Shown: positions 11,785 through 28,690 of the stretch, piece by piece | Layout of the letters: each line of letters starts with the position of its first letter | Numbering within the stretch: position 1 is the first letter of the stretch | DNA from: an uncultured Lacinutrix sp. | Lineage (GTDB): Bacteria > Bacteroidota > Bacteroidia > Flavobacteriales > Flavobacteriaceae | Length of the DNA stretch: 64,000 bases | Direction of reading: 5' to 3' | NCBI GenBank assembly: GCA_937129145.1 | Contig: CAKZMU010000031.1 | Coordinates: 1-64,000 of the forward strand | The notes under the pieces: model-generated | What the model was told of the DNA's origin: nothing | What the model saw: the letters and a program-made list of their open reading frames with translations, nothing else | The model's database searches: none | Program-made: the position numbers and the translations under genes

Positions 11785-12441
11785 TTAACAGCATTGGTCG
11801 TCTTTAACCAATTTACAGCTTGCCACAGCTAGAAATGCGCCAATAAAAGGTGCGGTAAGATACAACCATAAATGTTGCAAATTCCCAGAAATAATTGCAG
11901 GAGCAAGTGAGCGAATTGGGTTCATGGATGCTTTGGTCATTGGACCAGCAAACATAGCTTCCAATAAAATAACACCACCAACAGCAATGGCTGCCATAGT
12001 ACCAATTTCTTTGCTTCCAGTAGAGACATTTATAATAGTGACCATTAAAAAGAAGGTAAGTATGAGCTCCAATACAAATGCTTTGTAAGGTTCAAAACCA
12101 TCAGCAGGAAGTGAGCTTCCTAATGTATCGCTTTCAGGAAATAAAAACCATAGAATAAAACATGCCAAAAATGCACCAATTGCTTGCGAAAGGATATATT
12201 TTGGTACTTCTTTCCAAGGGAATTTCTTTGTATACGCAAATCCAAACGTAACTGCTGGATTAAAATGTGCGCCAGATATTTCACCAAACGCATAAATCAT
12301 TGCCATCACAATCAGTCCCCAAGTAATGGCAACGCCAACGTGTGTTATGCTACCATTGGTAATTTCGTTTACAGCTATGGCACCACAGCCACAAAATATC
12401 ATGGCAAAAGTCCCTATAATTTCGGCGTAGTATTTTTTCAT
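11785..12441 (-). CDS. Aquaporin / aquaglyceroporin (MIP family)
   Basis: A 218-residue channel with six predicted helices. The two half-helix motifs are HFNPAV (Asn61) and SMNPIRS (Asn174); the second is NPI instead of NPA. By alignment with AqpZ and GlpF the selectivity filter would be Trp41, Ala162, Ala171 and Arg177. Trp with two small residues resembles the wide GlpF-type filter rather than the narrow water-only one. The protein ends in two adjacent cysteines (DDQCC). Glycerol, urea or arsenite-type solutes are therefore plausible cargo, but no ars gene lies nearby. It has its own -7 box TATATTTG (12456-12463). Confidence 0.92.
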   Translation of the reverse strand: MKKYYAEIIGTFAMIFCGCGAIAVNEITNGSITHVGVAITWGLIVMAMIYAFGEISGAHFNPAVTFGFAYTKKFPWKEVPKYILSQAIGAFLACFILWFLFPESDTLGSSLPADGFEPYKAFVLELILTFFLMVTIINVSTGSKEIGTMAAIAVGGVILLEAMFAGPMTKASMNPIRSLAPAIISGNLQHLWLYLTAPFIGAFLAVASCKLVKDDQCC

Positions 12442-13422: not shown

Positions 13423-13450
13423 AAAAGCGAGCTAATTAGCTCGCTTTTTT
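13423..13450 (+). terminator. Terminator of the DUF2911 gene
   Basis: A perfect 26-base palindrome (arms AAAAGCGAGCTAA and TTAGCTCGCTTTT) followed by T residues, 23 bases after the stop. It differs by one base from the terminator at 15655. Confidence 0.87.
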
Positions 13451-13541: not shown

Positions 13542-15638
13542 ATGAATAAGCAATTTGAAGCCTTAAAAAAAGTAAGCCCAAATAGGATATTTTATATCAG
13601 CATAATTGTTATTGTATGTTTTTCATCTTTAGTGTCTTGCAAAGATGATCAATACGCCATAGTTGAAGAAGAACCCTTTTTATTAGGAAGAGGGTTTGGT
13701 TTTAGTTCGGCTACTGTAAATGTTAAGGATATAGATAGTGCGCGTCAATATTTTTCAGAAAAACTTGGATTCTCTTTTGGGAGGTCTAAAGAAGCAGAAC
13801 AAGGCAATATTAAAGGAACACTTACTAGCGCATTGGCATTTCCAGATATGTCGTCAATTGAATTATTGTCAATTGTTGATTCTATTCCTGTTAAAGGTAA
13901 AGACTCAGTATTGCATGAGTTTTTAATACAAAAGCCTGGTGTTAGAATGTACAACATTTCTAGCTCGTCTATAGATAGTACATACTCGTGGCTTGCATCA
14001 AAAGATTTTGAATTGGACTCAATAGAGAGTTATAAAACATTAAATGAATCACCTAATAAAAAAGCTTGGGATGATGATTATACCGAGCTATTAAATCTTG
14101 GCTTTAAAGATATACAGAAGCAAGAATATCTTCCTCAATTTTCAAAAATGCCTGATTTCCCTTATGACCGAATGAAAGAATGGGATGCCTTTTATAATAT
14201 GCAAAGAGGATTTTTAAGTCACCCAAATGGCGCACTTGGGGTAGTTGCATTAAAAATTCTTGTTCAAGATGTAGAATCAGTTCGTAACGAGTTTTTAAAA
14301 ATGGGACTAGAAGAACTTAAGGATTCATTAAACGAAGATATAATCAGGTTTAAGGTTAAAAGAAACCAAGAAATACAATTAATTGCTTCACCATCTGAAA
14401 AAAGTGAGCAAACTGAGACAACAAAAAAGGAAAACCCGAGAGTATTCAGCATAGTTTTCGAGGTTAAAAACATTGATGAAACCTATGATTTTTTAAAAGA
14501 AAACTTACCAGAAGAGGCCTTGCAATGGGACTCTACTTTAAACCAGATAACAGTTTTAAAAGATTACGCATATGGTCTGCAGTTAGAATTCGTACAAGAG
14601 TCTGAAAAACAAGCATTAATGGCGCAGAAACTCGAACTAAATTTCGGAGCAAAATTAGACAGTGTTGCAAGACATAATGCTAGCGCTATGTATCAACAAT
14701 ACTGTGCATTATGCCACGGAAAGGATAGAGAAGGTTATGCAGCAGATAATGCGCCTTCACTGCGTTCAAAATCTTTATTGGCATCCTCAAAAGGCAATAA
14801 TTTTATAAGATATACCATTCAATATGGTAGAGGAGAGTCTGCAATGGCTGGATATTATGACCAACTAGGTGGACCACTAACATTTTTAGAAATTGAGTTA
14901 CTTATAAAATGGCTGGAAGAAGAAGCAGGTATAGAAAAACCTGTTGAGCTTTCTAGAGACCCAGTTGTTGGCGATGTAGAATTAGGGAAAAAAGTTTACC
15001 AAACCCAATGTGCAGTTTGCCATGGTAATGAAGGAGAAGGTATTACTGCACCAGCTTTAGGCAATCCAATGCTTTTAGCTACGGCAACCGATGATTTTTT
15101 ACGTTATGCTATTAAAGAAGGAAGAGATGGTACACCAATGTTAGCCTATAAAGATATTCTTAGTGAAAAGGAAATAGATGACGTTACTACTTTTTTAAGG
15201 AGTAGAGCTTCTGGTTGGAATGTGCCAAAAACAGATTCCATTAAAATACCAACGCCAGAAAACTATATTCTAAACCCAAATGGGTCACAACCTGATTTCG
15301 AGCTAAGAGAAGGACGCTTTGTATCTGCTAAGCAGTTAAATCAAGCAATAGAAGATAGCACAAGATTGGTAATTTTGGATGCTCGGTCGGAAGTTGCATG
15401 GAGGCAAACACATATTCCTGGGTCTATTCCAGTGCCTTATTATGAAGACCCTGAAGAGTTTGCAAAGCATATTCCTAAAGAAAACACGATGATAGTAGCC
15501 TATTGTGCATGTCCTCATGCGGCTTCAGGAAAGGTAATTAGTAAATTGAAGAAACTAGGCTATAACAATACTGCTATTTTAGATGAAGGTGTTTTAATTT
15601 GGGCACAGCTAGGGTATCCTGTAAAACATGGTCACTAG
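13542..15638 (+). CDS. Lipoprotein fusing VOC-like domains, two cytochrome c domains and a rhodanese domain
   Basis: A 698-residue predicted lipoprotein. The signal ends in a lipobox LVSC (Cys33). Two or three glyoxalase/VOC-like modules follow (around FSSATVNVKDIDSARQYF, VVALKILVQDVESVRNEF and FSIVFEVKNIDETYDFL). Then come two cytochrome c domains with CALCHG (388-393) and CAVCHG (490-495). The C-terminal rhodanese domain has VILDARSEVAWRQTHIPGS and an active loop YCACPHAASG with Cys655. Heme domains imply periplasmic electron transfer, and rhodanese implies sulfur transfer or sensing. The combination is unusual and I cannot name a substrate. It is a single-gene unit between near-identical terminators; the ATG at 13542 gives a proper signal peptide. 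Confidence 0.9.
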   Translation: MNKQFEALKKVSPNRIFYISIIVIVCFSSLVSCKDDQYAIVEEEPFLLGRGFGFSSATVNVKDIDSARQYFSEKLGFSFGRSKEAEQGNIKGTLTSALAFPDMSSIELLSIVDSIPVKGKDSVLHEFLIQKPGVRMYNISSSSIDSTYSWLASKDFELDSIESYKTLNESPNKKAWDDDYTELLNLGFKDIQKQEYLPQFSKMPDFPYDRMKEWDAFYNMQRGFLSHPNGALGVVALKILVQDVESVRNEFLKMGLEELKDSLNEDIIRFKVKRNQEIQLIASPSEKSEQTETTKKENPRVFSIVFEVKNIDETYDFLKENLPEEALQWDSTLNQITVLKDYAYGLQLEFVQESEKQALMAQKLELNFGAKLDSVARHNASAMYQQYCALCHGKDREGYAADNAPSLRSKSLLASSKGNNFIRYTIQYGRGESAMAGYYDQLGGPLTFLEIELLIKWLEEEAGIEKPVELSRDPVVGDVELGKKVYQTQCAVCHGNEGEGITAPALGNPMLLATATDDFLRYAIKEGRDGTPMLAYKDILSEKEIDDVTTFLRSRASGWNVPKTDSIKIPTPENYILNPNGSQPDFELREGRFVSAKQLNQAIEDSTRLVILDARSEVAWRQTHIPGSIPVPYYEDPEEFAKHIPKENTMIVAYCACPHAASGKVISKLKKLGYNNTAILDEGVLIWAQLGYPVKHGH

Positions 15639-15654
15639 AACATAGAACATAAAA

Positions 15655-15682
15655 AAAAGCGAGCTAATTGGCTCGCTTTTTT
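15655..15682 (+). terminator. Terminator of the VOC-cytochrome-rhodanese gene
   Basis: Hairpin with arms AAAAGCGAGCTAA and TTGGCTCGCTTTT (one G-T wobble pair) followed by a T run, 16 bases after the stop. Confidence 0.87.
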
Positions 15683-15844
15683 AGTTAATAACTTTGTTGC
15701 CAAATGGTAATGATATCATTGACATTCTAGTGAGAAAATTTTAATTTCGCTTATGTATGCTAAACTAGCTTCAGTATCGTTTGATATAAAAAACGTGTAC
15801 TGAACGCAGTCTAAGTATTTAAATGCTGCATATCATAACATTAT

Positions 15845-16624
15845 ATGCAATTCAAAAAATTGAGAGTAACTAACACAGATAGAACAGGAGTTTATGTGTC
15901 CGCATTAATTTTTACTAAAGAATTAAAATGGATATTTCGCGAACAACCAATTGTTGATGTTGGAATTGATGCATTAGTAGAAGAAGTTATTGAGGGTAAT
16001 CCTACTGGACAATTTCTTGCCACACAAATTAAAACTGGATTGGGCAATTTTTATGATTCAAAAAAACACTTAACACTTTATGTAACTAAAATCCATTATC
16101 ACTATTGGACTAATCTAAACTTACCTATAATCCTAATAGCACATTTACCAAAAGATGAAGAAACAACTTGGGAATTGATTAATGAAAATACCTTAATCAA
16201 AACCGAAGCTCAATGGAAATTGAATATTCCAAAAGATAAGAAGTTAAATGAGGATTCAACTCTAGAACTTGCTAAAATTCTAAAAAAAGAAGTTCAAGAT
16301 GACTTTATCAAATCCTTTATTAAACAAGATATTTCAGAAACACAGATTGATGAAATAATTGAAGAATCTAAGTCAATAGATGAAGCAGGTTCAATTTTAA
16401 ATGATATGACTGAAATTATCTTAAATCTTGGTGCGAAGACGAATGAGCTAACTGAAAAAATAAACGAATTCGCTAGAATGAAAGTAACCAAAAGAGATAA
16501 AAGGCTTGTTCGTAATATAAAAACATATTCTGAATACCTGAATAAAGTAGCAATTAAACTTAATGCCAGAATTGATGAATTCGCTGATTATTTCTCAGAA
16601 GGGTTTAAGCTTATGAGAAACTAA
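15845..16624 (+). CDS. DUF4365 domain protein (PD-(D/E)XK nuclease-like), probably frameshifted near its 3' end
   Basis: A 259-residue protein with the DUF4365 pattern near the N terminus: QPIVDVGIDALVEE, then ATQIKTG. Asp42 followed about 20 residues later by Gln61-Ile-Lys63 is the core of a PD-(D/E)XK nuclease fold, as in Mrr-like enzymes. DUF4365 proteins are often found in defence or mobile contexts, but their activity is mostly untested. Residues 150-259 are helical and coiled-coil rich. The frame ends FKLMRN-stop, while a sister frame continues coherently for 94 more codons to 16893, so a one-base change has probably truncated this gene. No partner defence gene is adjacent. Confidence 0.75.
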   Translation: MQFKKLRVTNTDRTGVYVSALIFTKELKWIFREQPIVDVGIDALVEEVIEGNPTGQFLATQIKTGLGNFYDSKKHLTLYVTKIHYHYWTNLNLPIILIAHLPKDEETTWELINENTLIKTEAQWKLNIPKDKKLNEDSTLELAKILKKEVQDDFIKSFIKQDISETQIDEIIEESKSIDEAGSILNDMTEIILNLGAKTNELTEKINEFARMKVTKRDKRLVRNIKTYSEYLNKVAIKLNARIDEFADYFSEGFKLMRN

Positions 16625-16893
16625 CCCTTATCGATTTTAAGTTAAATCAAAATTATAAATCATTACAAGAAACTTTTGATACTATAAATTATTTGATTCC
16701 AGAAATTGAAGAATCTATTGGTGCTATGATACATTTCAGAAGTGAAATATCCTCATTACCAACAGAATATTCTCATTTAAAGAAAGCAAGATTAAAAATG
16801 ATTAATTCAATAAATCAAATTATGGAGGAATTTAAACTAGCCAATAGTTTATCTGAAAATTTCTCAAAGAATTTAGAAGAAATATTGAACTAA
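16609..16893 (+). pseudogene. Out-of-frame C-terminal remainder of the DUF4365 gene
   Basis: Frame +1 is open from 16609 (after TAA at 16606) to TAA at 16891-16893. It reads EKLTLIDFKLNQNYKSLQET, then a helical stretch ending LSENFSKNLEEILN. Its composition and helical character continue those of the preceding DUF4365 product. The switch from the upstream frame needs a -1 shift around 16600-16624. Independent translation from TTG at 16693 would give only 66 residues. I see no convincing slippery heptamer, so mutation or a sequencing error is more likely than programmed frameshifting. Confidence 0.6.
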
Positions 16894-16894
16894 A

Positions 16895-17040
16895 ACAGCA
16901 TATATAACACGGTATATAATTTATTGCTTAGTCTATACGAAAATCCGCGAGGACTTTCTATTCGGTTTGTATTTGCTAATTTAGTTGCTGAAACACGCAA
17001 CGAAATCATACATAAACACGATAAACGTAACTCAAAATCC
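16895..17040. repeat. Structured intergenic element after the DUF4365 gene
   Basis: A 146-base noncoding stretch with two hairpins: GAAAATCC-GCGA-GGACTTTC (16939-16958, one mismatch) and GTTGC-TGAAACAC-GCAAC (16984-17001). Phrases such as TTTAGTTGCTGAAACACGCAAC resemble an intergenic element I recall from other flavobacterial genomes, but I cannot check this here. Its position directly after an accessory gene suggests a mobile or cassette-associated repeat; this is inference. Confidence 0.4.
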
Positions 17041-17047
17041 TTTTGTT

Positions 17048-18784
17048 TTACTCACCAATAGCCTCTAAACCCTCATTTGGCGGATTTCTATCAAAAGATT
17101 GCAGTAATATTGCAATCACCATCACAATCACACAGCCTACAAAATTCAACCATAAAAAAGGCAAATTAATCACTTCGTATTCGTTTAATAAAAACAATGC
17201 TATCACCAATACTTGTGTAATTAACGCCGCAGTAAACACTGCATTCCCTTTCACCCATTTTATAAAAAAGGCTAGTAAAAAGATACCTAATACGTTTCCG
17301 TAGAAAATAGACCCAATAATATTAACGAGTTGTATTAAATTTTCGGCGAGGTTAGCGACACAAGCAATACCAATGGCTAAAATACCCCAACCCAAGGTAA
17401 ACATCTTTGAAGCTTTTACCATCTCTTCATCGGAGTGCTTTCCTGTATTTCGTTTGTATAAATCGATAGTGGTGGTAGAGGCTAAGGCGTTTAATTCGCT
17501 GGATGTACTCGACATAGCAGCACTTAAAATAACTGCCAATAACAAGCCTATTAAGCCTCTTGGTAAGTTGTTTAATATAAAGTTGATAAATACATAATCT
17601 TTATCGTTTTTTTCGACTTTTAACTGTTGCTCCTCAGCTGCTTTTTCAATGAGGACTCTTGCATCGCTTCTAAGTGCTTCGTAGGCGTTGTTAGCATCGG
17701 CAATCTTTTTGGTGGTTGCCTCGTTTTTATTGTCAATAAAATCGGCTATGTAAGTTTGTTTGTCTTTAAAAATAGCTTCTTGTTCTGCTTGTAATACTTT
17801 GTATTCCTCAGCATATTGCGAATTTAAAACTGTTTTTGTCGCGTCTGGGTTAAAGTTTAAAGGCGCTTGATTAAACTGATAAAACACAAACACCATCACA
17901 CCAACCAATAAAATAAAGAACTGCATTGGTACTTTTAGTAAGCCATTAAATAGCAAACCTAATTGCATTTCTTTGACTGATTTCCCACTTAAATACCGTT
18001 GTACCTGACTTTGGTCTGTTCCAAAATAGGAGAGCATTAAAAATGTACCACCAATAATACCACTCCAAAACGTATAGCGATTGTTTAAGTCGAATGAGAA
18101 ATCTAAAACTTCCATTTTCCCATTTGCTCCTGCGATTTCTAATGCTTTAGAAAATGTGATGTCAGCAGGGAGCTTGCTAACTATAATAATAAAAGCAACC
18201 ACCATTCCTGTAAAAATCACGACCATTTGGTGTTTTTGAGTCACGCTTACAGCTTTGGTGCCTCCAGAGACAGTATAGATTATTACAAGGATTCCGATGA
18301 TGATATTTAATAATACCAAATTCCAACCAAGTACTACAGATAATATAATTGATGGCGCAAAAATGGTAATTCCAGCAGCGAGACCACGTTGTATTAAAAA
18401 GAGGATTGCTGTTAGGGTTCTCGTTTTTAAATCAAATCGATTTTCTAAAAACTCATAAGCTGTATAGACGTTTAATCGATGGTAGAGCGGAATAAATACC
18501 ATGCAAATAACAATCATTGCTATTGGTAATCCAAAGTAGAACTGTACAAATCCCATACCGTCGTTAAAGGCTTGTCCAGGAGTTGAGAGAAAGGTAATAG
18601 CACTTGCTTGAGTTGCCATGACAGATAAACCAATGGTCCACCATTTTGAGGTGCTTCCGCCTTTTAGGTAGTCTTTAACGTCTCTATTTTTTCTGGTTAT
18701 CCATGTACCATAAGCTACAATGGTAACAAGTGTAAATATTAGGATAGTCCAGTCTAAGGTTTCTAATTTTATAAAATGATTCAT
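17048..18784 (-). CDS. Sodium:solute symporter (SSS family)
   Basis: A 578-residue inner-membrane transporter with about 13-14 predicted helices, of the SSS family (pfam SSF) that couples Na+ entry to uptake of sugars, acids or amino acids. Visible family motifs are WWTIGLSVMATQASAITFLS in the first helices, AYEFLENRFDLKTR, and YFGTDQSQVQRYLSGKS, the conserved site between helices. A long hydrophilic insert (about 325-395) is unusual in length and rich in Glu, Lys and Ala. The operon partners are a PIG-L deacetylase and a 37-residue membrane protein with one-base gaps, which suggests uptake of an acetylated sugar or its product. Confidence 0.92.
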   Translation of the reverse strand: MNHFIKLETLDWTILIFTLVTIVAYGTWITRKNRDVKDYLKGGSTSKWWTIGLSVMATQASAITFLSTPGQAFNDGMGFVQFYFGLPIAMIVICMVFIPLYHRLNVYTAYEFLENRFDLKTRTLTAILFLIQRGLAAGITIFAPSIILSVVLGWNLVLLNIIIGILVIIYTVSGGTKAVSVTQKHQMVVIFTGMVVAFIIIVSKLPADITFSKALEIAGANGKMEVLDFSFDLNNRYTFWSGIIGGTFLMLSYFGTDQSQVQRYLSGKSVKEMQLGLLFNGLLKVPMQFFILLVGVMVFVFYQFNQAPLNFNPDATKTVLNSQYAEEYKVLQAEQEAIFKDKQTYIADFIDNKNEATTKKIADANNAYEALRSDARVLIEKAAEEQQLKVEKNDKDYVFINFILNNLPRGLIGLLLAVILSAAMSSTSSELNALASTTTIDLYKRNTGKHSDEEMVKASKMFTLGWGILAIGIACVANLAENLIQLVNIIGSIFYGNVLGIFLLAFFIKWVKGNAVFTAALITQVLVIALFLLNEYEVINLPFLWLNFVGCVIVMVIAILLQSFDRNPPNEGLEAIGE

Positions 18785-25495: not shown

Positions 25496-28400
25496 ATGCT
25501 AAAAAAAATCTCCAACATTCTTTTTTCTACCAGACTTACAGCCTTTTTATTTATAGCTTTTGCTGTTGCAATGATTACAGGAACTTTTATGGATGCAGGT
25601 CAAGACACCTCACCAACGCCATATTCCAGAACACTTATTTACAATGCTTGGTGGTTTGAAACCATTATGGTTTTGTTTACTATAAATTTTATTGGAAACA
25701 TTTTTAGATACCGTTTATTAAGAAAAGAAAAATGGGCAACATTAACGCTGCATTTGGCTTTCATATTTATATTTATAGGAGCGTTCATTACAAGATATAT
25801 TAGTTACGAGGGTATGATGGCGATTCGTGAAGGCGCTACCGAAAATGTGTTCTTATCTCAAAAAACATATTTAACTGCTTACATTGATGGTGATTATATA
25901 GTTGATGGACAACAACAACGCCGAGTGCATGAATATGAAACCGATTTTTCACATAGGCTAAATAACAACTTTAAAGAAAGTACAGATTATAACGGTCAAC
26001 CAGTGACTATAGAGTTAGAAGAATTTATTCTTGGAGCCGAACAGGATGTTGTACCAGACGATTCAGGAGAAAACTATTTAAAAATAGTTGAAGCTGGTAT
26101 GGGAGGCTCTCATAACCACTTTTTAAAAGAAGGTCAAGTACAAAGCATTCACAATGTGTTGTATGCACTTAACAAACCTACCGATGGAGCAATTAATATC
26201 ACACATACCGACAGTTCGTTAACCATTCAGTCGCCTTTTGAAGGTGAGTATTTAACCATGGCAACACAAGCTAAAGGCAAATTGGTAAAAGATAGCTTGC
26301 AACCTTTAGTGTTACGTTCAAGATATATCATTGGTAATCAAACATTGGTGTTTCCAAAGCCAGTGGTGAAAGGTGTGTTTGATGTTGTAAAAAAATCAGA
26401 GATATTAAAAAATGATGAAGATGGCTTGGTCTTAAAAGTCACTGCTAACGATGAAACTAAAACCGTAAAATTGCTGGGAGGTAAAGGCACAAATAATGCA
26501 TTTAAAAAAGTGACAATTGGAGGCTTGGATTTTCACTTAAAATATGGCTCCAAAGTTATAGAGTTGCCATTTAGCATTAAGTTAAATGATTTTATAGCCA
26601 AACGTTTCCCAGGCACCGAAAACAGTTACTCAGCTTACGAAAGTAAAGTAACGGTATTGGATGAGCAAGAAGGCGATTTCGATTTTCATATTTACATGAA
26701 CAACATATTAAACCATAGAGGGTACCGTTTTTTTCAAGCATCGTTCGACCCAGATGAGAAGGGAACCATTCTATCTGTAAACCATGATTTCTTGGGAACA
26801 AATATCACATATCTAGGGTATTTTTTATTGTATTTTGGGTTAATGGCAATACTGTTTGCAAAAAACACACGATTTGACGATTTAAGAAACCGCTTGCAAA
26901 AAATAAAAGTTAAAAAAGCCTCCATGTGCATTGCCCTGTTTTTGGCAACCACTATTGGTTTGCATGCACAAGAAGTCCATACTGAAGATGATGGTCACGA
27001 CCATACACAACAACAAGTAACCAAGTCACAAATAGATTCTATTTTGAGGGTCAATATAACTCCTAAAGAACACGCCGATAAATTAGGACGTTTGGTCATT
27101 CAGGATTTTGATGGACGTATGAAACCCATACATACCTATGCATCAGAGTTATTGCGTAAACTTTCAAAATACGATATATATGAAGGTTTTGATGCGAACC
27201 AAGTGTTTTTATCAATGCAGGAAAGTCCGTTCTTGTGGTATAATGTACCAATTATTCATTTGAAACCTAAAAAGTCAGATACCATTAGAAGTATTATTGG
27301 GTTGGATAAAGATAAAAAATACGCAACCCTATCTCAGTTCTTCACCGAAAAAGGCGTATATAAACTTGGAGGTTATTTACAAGAAGCTTATAGTGCACAA
27401 GTACAAACAGCCATACAAAAAGAGTTTCTAGAAGCTAACCAACGTGTAAACCTGTTACACAGTACTTTAAATGGAAATACGTTAAAAATCTTTCCTATTC
27501 CAGAAGATGACAATAATACTTGGACTTCTCCTCAAGATTATAGAGAGCAAAAACTTCAGTTTGAAGATTCACTTTACGGAAACTTTATAAACACTGGTTT
27601 TAAAGCGTATTTATATATGCTTAATGAAGGCAAAAAAACTGGCGATTTTGCTGAAAGTGATAAACTATTAGCAGCTATTAAAAAAACACAGCAAAAATAT
27701 GGTGCTGAGGTTATGTTAAGTGAGAAAAAAATAGACACTGAAATACTATACAACAAATATGATATTTTCAAGAGCCTGTTTAGTTGGTATATGTATGCAG
27801 GAACATTGATGTTTATCTTACTTATAGTTCAGATATTTAAAGATAAAAATAAAGGCATTAATACTGCTGTAACAGTTTTTAAATATATTATAGTGGGTCT
27901 GTTTTTATTACATACTGCTGGTTTAATTGTAAGATGGTATTTATCTGGTCACGCACCTTGGAGTGATGCTTATGAGTCCATGATATACGTAGCTTGGGCA
28001 ACCATGTTGTTTGGATTGTTATTTGGTCGAAAAAGTGATATCACCTTTGCGGCAACTGCCTTTGTAACTGCAATGATATTAATGATTGCCCATTGGAGCT
28101 GGATGGATCCTTCCATTGGCACCTTACAACCCGTTTTAAATAGTTATTGGTTAATGATTCATGTAGCAGTTATCGTTGGAAGTTATGGGCCATTTACTTT
28201 AGGGATGATTTTGGGAGTGGTGTCTTTATTATTAATGATTCTTACTAACGATAAGAATAAGAAAAAAATGGACATTAACATTAAAGAACTCACCATTGTT
28301 AACGAAATGGCGCTAACTGTTGGTTTGGTAATGCTAACCATTGGTAACTTTTTAGGTGGTATGTGGGCAAACGAAAGTTGGGGACGTTATTGGGGATGGG

Positions 28401-28690
28401 ACCCTAAAGAAACCTGGGCGCTTATTAGTATCATGGCGTATGCGTTTATTATTCATATGCGTTTAGTACCAGGGTTAAGAGGTCGTTTTGGATTTAATTT
28501 AGCTTCTATTATTGGAATAGCATTTATAATTTTCACTTATTTTGGAGTTAATTTTTATTTAGCAGGATTACATTCTTATCAATCTGGACAACAATTAGAC
28601 AGTGTAAATACTATAGCTACTGTGTTTGCCATTGTGGCGATACTTGCGTTTTTTGCTTACAGAAAATATACTAAGTACTACAGGAAGTAG
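25496..28690 (+). CDS. Fused CcsB (ResB)-CcsA (ResC) cytochrome c synthase
   Basis: A 1064-residue membrane protein. The N-terminal half is ResB/CcsB-like, with helices near residues 10-30, 55-75 and 85-105, a large periplasmic domain (about 110-430) and a further helix. After a His-rich linker near 500 and a second soluble region, the C-terminal half has 7-8 helices and the heme-handling WWD motif in RYWGWDPKETWALI (about 963-976), typical of CcsA. System II enzymes of this type carry heme across the membrane and attach it to CxxCH motifs. It would serve c-type cytochromes such as the fusion protein at 13.5 kb. The full-length fusion is normal for Bacteroidota. Confidence 0.95.
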   Translation: MLKKISNILFSTRLTAFLFIAFAVAMITGTFMDAGQDTSPTPYSRTLIYNAWWFETIMVLFTINFIGNIFRYRLLRKEKWATLTLHLAFIFIFIGAFITRYISYEGMMAIREGATENVFLSQKTYLTAYIDGDYIVDGQQQRRVHEYETDFSHRLNNNFKESTDYNGQPVTIELEEFILGAEQDVVPDDSGENYLKIVEAGMGGSHNHFLKEGQVQSIHNVLYALNKPTDGAINITHTDSSLTIQSPFEGEYLTMATQAKGKLVKDSLQPLVLRSRYIIGNQTLVFPKPVVKGVFDVVKKSEILKNDEDGLVLKVTANDETKTVKLLGGKGTNNAFKKVTIGGLDFHLKYGSKVIELPFSIKLNDFIAKRFPGTENSYSAYESKVTVLDEQEGDFDFHIYMNNILNHRGYRFFQASFDPDEKGTILSVNHDFLGTNITYLGYFLLYFGLMAILFAKNTRFDDLRNRLQKIKVKKASMCIALFLATTIGLHAQEVHTEDDGHDHTQQQVTKSQIDSILRVNITPKEHADKLGRLVIQDFDGRMKPIHTYASELLRKLSKYDIYEGFDANQVFLSMQESPFLWYNVPIIHLKPKKSDTIRSIIGLDKDKKYATLSQFFTEKGVYKLGGYLQEAYSAQVQTAIQKEFLEANQRVNLLHSTLNGNTLKIFPIPEDDNNTWTSPQDYREQKLQFEDSLYGNFINTGFKAYLYMLNEGKKTGDFAESDKLLAAIKKTQQKYGAEVMLSEKKIDTEILYNKYDIFKSLFSWYMYAGTLMFILLIVQIFKDKNKGINTAVTVFKYIIVGLFLLHTAGLIVRWYLSGHAPWSDAYESMIYVAWATMLFGLLFGRKSDITFAATAFVTAMILMIAHWSWMDPSIGTLQPVLNSYWLMIHVAVIVGSYGPFTLGMILGVVSLLLMILTNDKNKKKMDINIKELTIVNEMALTVGLVMLTIGNFLGGMWANESWGRYWGWDPKETWALISIMAYAFIIHMRLVPGLRGRFGFNLASIIGIAFIIFTYFGVNFYLAGLHSYQSGQQLDSVNTIATVFAIVAILAFFAYRKYTKYYRK

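Follow-up and report, generated by a model that had tools for sequence, protein, structure and literature searches.

Described systems related to a diheme rhodanese

In flavocytochrome c sulfide dehydrogenase a redox-active cysteine pair feeds electrons to a diheme cytochrome c. Tandem class I cytochrome c domains are also present in CcoP/FixP, the diheme subunit III of the cbb3 oxidase (TIGR00782). In the Geobacter ext cluster the rhodanese-like protein ExtH is encoded alongside c-type cytochromes, although the accessible part of that report presents separate genes and multiheme cytochromes, with no fusion (PMC5877670). The accessible text of another paper describes a fusion of rhodanese to a dioxygenase, not to a cytochrome (PMC13047784). 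Among the NCBIfam rhodanese models, the best for the protein studied here is NF041203, a rhodanese-related (seleno)protein whose motif is given as CxU in a published table (PMC13188914). Weak profile similarity links its N-terminal part to 4-hydroxyphenylpyruvate dioxygenase and other VOC proteins.

In the window (the whole stretch of DNA analysed, 64,000 nucleotides), one open reading frame on the forward strand (13542-15638) encodes 698 residues, and its order of domains, VOC, cytochrome c, cytochrome c and rhodanese, is supported by the reading frame, by Pfam and by its relatives. The family is an unfamiliar combination built of known domains. In the literature searched, where most subscription papers fell outside, we met no published description of a heme-heme-rhodanese family. 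This rare bacterial lipoprotein, which unites sulfur-handling, diheme and binding domains, might by itself connect sulfur chemistry with respiration.

Domain architecture of the lipoprotein

Residues 1-32 (13542-13637) form a putative lipoprotein signal peptide, assigned from the lipobox motif LVSC. Cys33 (13638-13640), the predicted lipid anchor, is invariant in all 10 aligned sequences and is followed by KDD. The VOC-less protein of genome G272, considered below, has no Cys before heme 1. In the accessible part of PMC5080379, the optimal signal of surface-exposed lipoproteins is given as C-X-K-(D/E)2-X and the minimal one as K-(D/E)2 or Q-A-(D/E)2. The window protein reads CKDD, with the Lys one place off that optimum, and KDD after the anchor occurs only in the window copy and is not conserved in relatives.

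The VOC part matches Pfam Glyoxalase (PF00903) over residues 56-159 with 24.2 bits (cut-off 20.6), falls slightly short of Glyoxalase_3 (24.7 bits, cut-off 25.1) and reaches 14.1 bits against Glyoxalase_5 at residues 228-319 (cut-off 27). The N-terminal parts of 12 members, the window protein included, all match both Glyoxalase and Glyoxalase_3 at E≤0.1 (best 7e-13 and 1e-14), and nine of the 12 touch the 4-hydroxyphenylpyruvate dioxygenase model TIGR01263. Against solved structures the similarity is weak (best PDB E 1e-4). Within this part we distinguish unit A (residues 55-112; 13704-13877), unit C (232-283; 14235-14390), which has a weak, below cut-off match to an HPPD N-terminal model, and unit D (300-354; 14439-14603). 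Profile self-comparison with hhalign gives probabilities of 83 for A-C and 79 for A-D, both spanning only 22 columns, and 19 for C-D. A possible degenerate unit B (133-163; 13938-14030) lies within the Glyoxalase/Glyoxalase_3 match and is unsupported by self-comparison (0.1-5 for all its pairs). An AlphaFold model built from three sequences displays three beta-alpha-beta units in the VOC part, at a pLDDT of 37 there and 33 for the whole protein, both too poor to lean on. Together, these comparisons suggest three VOC units (A, C and D), the fourth being unproven. Across the 12 aligned VOC parts no His is invariant, and the positions that we take to be the usual metal ligands, placed by eye, hold Ser, Asn, Gly, Arg or Ala. 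Thus a VOC metal site is not supported; in contrast to 4-hydroxyphenylpyruvate dioxygenase and other VOC proteins, the window protein is exported and does not conserve the His/Glu metal ligands.

The central part matches Pfam Cytochrome_CBB3 in two stretches (59.7 bits, cut-off 27). Cytochrome domain 1 (14667-14933) holds CALCH at residues 388-392 and Met435, and domain 2 (14970-15209) holds CAVCH at 490-494 and Met533; Pfam, the alignment and PDB profile matches support each. Both CxxCH motifs and the one Met per heme are invariant in all 11 aligned sequences, as expected of two class I cytochromes c. The best PDB match of the diheme profile is CcoP (3mk7 chain C; E 5e-15). In contrast to CcoP, the diheme part is fused to rhodanese and VOC domains and we noticed no oxidase genes next to the gene; with 51.1 bits, the protein scores below the TIGR00782 cut-off of 179.95. 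It also stays below the models for the sulfur cytochromes SoxX (14.2 bits, cut-off 61) and SorU (18.6 bits, cut-off 100). Whereas flavocytochrome c sulfide dehydrogenase carries an FAD domain, no such match appears among the nine Pfam families listed to E 1, and a rhodanese stands in its place; any likeness is in how the two would work. The host encodes a ResB/CcsA-type cytochrome c maturation protein (25496-28690).

The C-terminal rhodanese domain (residues 593-696; 15318-15629) is supported by Pfam (PF00581 at 595-688; 50.7 bits, cut-off 22.2), by the alignment and by PDB profile matches. The PDB search also returned two designed TIM barrels (E 2.5e-6 and 6.4e-6), so its weaker matches carry little weight.

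An unusual CxC active-site loop

The rhodanese loop reads YCACPHAASG from residue 654 and contains the active-site motif Cys655-Ala-Cys657-Pro-His659 (15504-15518). The pattern Y-C-x-C-P-H-A-A-S is kept in 16 of 16 members found, 14 with and two without the VOC part (a count that covers 14 whole sequences, the truncated G704 copy and the second frame of the split G122 copy). Cys655, invariant in 11 of 11 aligned sequences, aligns with the loop Cys of PDB 6mxv, which we take to be catalytic. The standard rhodanese loop has six residues, CxxGx(R/S/T). CxCPHAAS does not conform to it and, within a common rhodanese profile, is one residue longer than the loops of the two solved rhodanese-like proteins 6mxv and 1yt8.

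CxC was found in none of the 22 other rhodaneses with a readable loop, from 31 rows fetched. Ten have a second Cys five places beyond the catalytic one; these C-x4-C proteins are small rhodaneses, of which eight belong to a single further family of the phylum, f32 (L043, L044, L046, L048, L050, L051, L052, L055), and two to f38 (L053, L054). In the 14 sequences checked, the mature chain has no cysteines other than the CxC pair, those of the hemes and that of the lipid anchor (the last present in the 12 VOC forms). Stray cysteines occur only ahead of the lipid Cys or in the signal or leader (G000, the window's genome, and G002, G003, G1093 and G045).

Scores against NF041203 are 50.6-53.7 bits, below the cut-off of 115. 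Judged by its sequence, the window rhodanese is thus related in shape to that family and is not a member. The G272 protein matches NF045521 better than NF041203 (52.2 versus 42.2 bits), and ordinary rhodaneses match NF041203 in nine of 14 control genomes, none over the cut-off. NF041203 has C-x-U where the window family has C-x-C, a correspondence drawn from the model or motif name and from the table in PMC13188914, as no protein scoring over the cut-off was encountered. This likeness hints that a chalcogen at position C+2 may be used for redox chemistry.

The reading frame and the Pfam searches, in which both VOC and rhodanese profiles score over their cut-offs, confirm what a preliminary description had noticed in this gene, namely a lipobox with Cys33, a VOC-like part, CxxCH motifs at 388 and 490 and a C-terminal rhodanese with the Cys655 motif. 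Its proposals also gain support: export as a lipoprotein from the lipobox, electron transfer by hemes from the CxxCH and Met residues, and sulfur-type chemistry from the rhodanese match and Cys655. Where it had counted two or three VOC-like units, self-comparison and the very low-confidence model favour three. Its use of the VOC domains as a metal site is not borne out by the 12 aligned VOC parts.

A rare, patchily distributed family

The VOC-cytochrome-cytochrome-rhodanese order occurs in 14 genomes, the window's and 13 others (G000, G002, G003, G089, G209, G122, G390, G447, G498, G525, G559, G704, G765 and G1093). We therefore regard it as a rare conserved family rather than a singleton. The preliminary description had held the order to be novel, which stands insofar as we met no described family in the literature; the search that it had suggested for the same order in other genomes succeeded, and the gene is not unique. 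Two further genomes of one genus (G045 and G272) encode the heme-heme-rhodanese core, with no VOC match found in either protein.

All searches of genomes stayed within the window's phylum and drew on overlapping samples, and the counts are lower bounds, because several searches scored only a few candidates per genome. At least 3 of 40 relatives carry full-length copies, and an N-terminal query found copies in at least 4 of 299 genomes of the window's family. Across the phylum, at least 6 of 395 genomes have full-length copies; 52 have any match at E≤1e-8, and in the other 46 it covers about a single domain. Further samples yielded at least 4 of 92, 6 of 195 and 3 of 114, a class-level sample at least 1 of 295, and another at least 6 of 339 (four with VOC, two without). 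We detected no plasmid copies by tblastn with the whole protein (E≤1e-10) or the VOC-less core (E≤1e-8).

Identity is 84-97% in the window's genus, 61-74% among G525, G390, G447 and G498, and 47-56% between lineages. The window's own family does not form a single clade in a tree of 11 members, where G209 groups with G525, G390, G447 and G498 at modest support (88/90). This placement, together with the patchy distribution, hints at transfer or repeated loss.

Conservation differs between the parts. Mean column identity is 57% in the VOC part, 81% in the two cytochromes and 77% in the rhodanese, and dN/dS for the one pair compared (window and G003) is 0.20, 0.05 and, for linker plus rhodanese, 0.07. 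Where the VOC part is missing, the diheme and rhodanese parts remain joined. By these sequence measures, the constrained core is the diheme cytochrome fused to the CxC rhodanese, and the VOC part evolves faster.

Single members show signs of decay or sequencing error. The G122 copy is split into two frames (L058 7961-10095); the G704 copy (L072 4078-5559), cut at a contig end so that it starts inside the VOC part, has CALRH instead of CxxCH at heme 1 and stands outside the 11-sequence alignment; and the G002 copy (L031 8001-10061) has an early stop and is 14 residues shorter than that of G003. Because of these defects, some genomes may be able to do without the gene or be losing it.

Proposed sulfur and dithiol redox chemistry

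The reading that we prefer, at a probability of about 0.4, is that the protein is a sulfur/dithiol oxidoreductase that is exported, held by a lipid anchor and connected to the respiratory chain. Cys655 would accept sulfane sulfur, donated by sulfide, thiosulfate or a persulfide, and carry it as a rhodanese persulfide. Cys657 would attack that persulfide or bond with Cys655, which would create a disulfide/dithiol couple at CxC. Both electrons of the couple could then travel singly across the two His/Met hemes towards an oxidase or a further cytochrome c. Without conserved metal ligands, the VOC part would serve as a ligand-binding or scaffold module that holds the substrate near the core in most members. 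The protein would work like a flavin-free sulfide dehydrogenase; we prefer the oxidative direction, and both direction and substrate are guesses. Should the mechanism be right, sulfane-sulfur handling would here be joined directly and covalently to electron transfer by cytochrome c. To our knowledge, the step from sulfane sulfur to cytochrome c otherwise depends on flavin enzymes, molybdenum enzymes or separate proteins.

Since the CxC pair has no other cysteine partner in the mature chain, we infer that this internal couple is the natural redox partner of the hemes, and two hemes would match the two electrons of a dithiol. The concentration of constraint in the cytochromes and rhodanese, kept together even without the VOC part, points the same way. 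Against this redox reading, the direct oxidation of a dithiol by heme without flavin is chemically harder, NF041203 scores lie far below the cut-off while ordinary rhodaneses match that model too, no clear sulfur-oxidation gene is present among the identified neighbours, and the G704, G002 and G122 copies look defective. A DsrE-like gene about 8 kb from the G498 copy scores 19.9 bits (cut-off 22.7). The preliminary description had read the gene as a periplasmic redox or sulfur-linked enzyme or sensor with the VOC domains as substrate or metal site; the lipoprotein, the hemes and the sulfur chemistry are retained here, and the VOC metal site is not.

In G045 (L103 9953-17608) and G272 (L104 10156-17696), the VOC-less gene and an ABC permease gene (no family match) run convergently, 4 bp apart. 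The permease gene is followed by genes for an ATPase, NosD, NosL and NosZ, and the cluster includes a cytochrome c gene; the nos-cluster genes were named by family search for G045. NosDFY has been suggested, by similarity, as a sulfide supplier for CuZ in the accessible parts of two papers (PMC7660919; PMC6530538). The VOC-less gene is a candidate sulfur or redox supplier for the same site. We tentatively propose that the family as a whole is a flavin-free, extracytoplasmic CxC rhodanese whose own two hemes connect it with the respiratory chain, and that the form beside nosD-nosL-nosZ in two genomes might supply sulfur or redox equivalents to the CuZ site of nitrous oxide reductase. If true, this shorter form would be a testable candidate for how sulfide reaches CuZ. 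A role in N2O reduction was rejected for the VOC form, as NosZ is over the cut-off in only three of seven member genomes tested (G000, G089 and G525; not G209, G498, G559 or G390) and so is not required.

Gene neighbourhoods and alternative roles

In the window, the gene lies between a DUF2911 gene and a DUF4365 gene (Pfam). Behind the DUF2911 gene and behind the lipoprotein gene stand two hairpins with T runs, almost identical to each other, on the forward strand (13424-13447 and 15656-15679). The G002 and G003 copies are likewise followed by hairpins. Terminator-like sites are not clearly commoner in the window than in shuffles (4 found, mean 2.8), nor are promoter-like sites (15 found, mean 17.7). 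The preliminary description had seen no helper genes, which agrees with this placement between two terminator-like hairpins and does not extend to some other lineages. No partner gene is constant across nine lineages, and because the neighbours vary, no pathway is fixed.

The main rival is a soft-metal protein, in which Cys655-x-Cys657-x-His659 would bind copper, zinc or arsenite, with the hemes setting its redox state, in metal homeostasis or delivery. We consider this possible but unlikely. CxCxH is present in 16 of 16 members, and several neighbourhoods suit a metal role. The G559 and G498 copies, from different families, share genes for CobW, a Peripla_BP_2 binding protein, a permease, an ABC ATPase (the last two presumably so identified), DUF5916 and a TonB receptor, within one 20-kb stretch in G559 and about 18 kb either side in G498; counted to the first start codon, 12 bp in G559 and 50 bp in G498 separate the gene from its co-oriented upstream neighbour. 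In three of nine lineages (G704, G209 and G498) a gene for a Fur-family regulator is found at a distance of 1.6 to 12 kb, and G498 and G704 share, besides this regulator, nearby MerC, phosphatase and presumably FolE-like genes. In G002 and G003, a co-oriented gene for an ACR3 arsenite exporter is separated from the family gene by two others on its upstream side (TIGR00832; the G003 gene scores 439.9 bits, cut-off 282.8); near the G525 copy lie a MIP homologue, ArsR-type genes and LMWPc genes; and the nos copper genes adjoin the VOC-less form. However, the metal implied changes from lineage to lineage, CobW has no match at E≤1e-15 in 8 of the 13 member genomes tested, among them that of the window, and an exact palindrome near the Fur-family gene of G498 does not precede the family gene. 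The rhodanese fold and the position of its catalytic Cys are also retained.

Less probable still is the reverse flow, in which respiratory electrons would pass through the hemes to the CxC disulfide and reduce disulfides, sulfane sulfur or polysulfide outside the cytoplasm. The anatomy read from the sequence would serve either direction. His/Met class I cytochromes c, however, are usually of high potential, unfavourable for disulfide reduction, and we recognised no electron donor among the neighbours common to lineages. That the protein is a redox sensor or signalling lipoprotein would fit its many domains and its lack of a constant partner gene, yet the Pfam list contains no output domain, and Fur, the only regulator family common to lineages, is near the gene in just three of nine; we find this improbable. 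Catalysis by the VOC part as a dioxygenase or lyase, with the hemes serving it and the rhodanese accessory, is very improbable despite the uniform VOC matches and the contacts with TIGR01263, given the lack of an invariant His, the weakest constraint of the three parts and the VOC-less proteins of G045 and G272.

Two metal-specific roles were set aside. A zinc (Zur/COG0523) role, suggested by the cluster common to G559 and G498, was rejected on the distribution of CobW and on the position of the palindrome; DUF1826 is named in a figure legend on Zur-regulated COG0523 clusters in the accessible part of PMC2770081. An arsenic role was a lead only: the window has a general MIP channel where G002 and G003 have ACR3, and, beyond these two and G525, arsenic genes were not seen in the other lineages. 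The window channel gene (11785-12441, reverse strand), just before the DUF2911 gene, encodes a MIP-family protein (172.8 bits, cut-off 171.25) and scores 143.5 bits against the aquaporin Z model (cut-off 256). The ACR3-type genes in that place are at L031 4780-5826 and L032 4782-5828, the latter over the cut-off.

Across six neighbourhood stretches there was no Rfam match at gathering score, and hence no cobalamin riboswitch; a TGTTA/TAACA scan gave scattered matches only. The exact palindrome, TGCAACNNNGTTGCA, is at L060 17388, 18972 and 19010, at L088 3297 and 8506 (G498) and at L072 2024 (G704), near genes for the Fur-family regulator, MerC, a TonB receptor, the DsrE-like protein and an FAD-type protein. 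It is absent before the family gene in G498; the G704 contig does not reach the region upstream of its copy. By its placement, it is a possible operator of the Fur-family regulator in this lineage.

Just downstream of the gene, three close relatives share a variable insertion spot (window 15638-17048, L032 10103-11279, L031 10061-12184), occupied by the DUF4365 gene in the window, by a gene for a 288-residue protein in L032 and by one for a 619-residue protein, FAD enzyme-like by eye, in L031.
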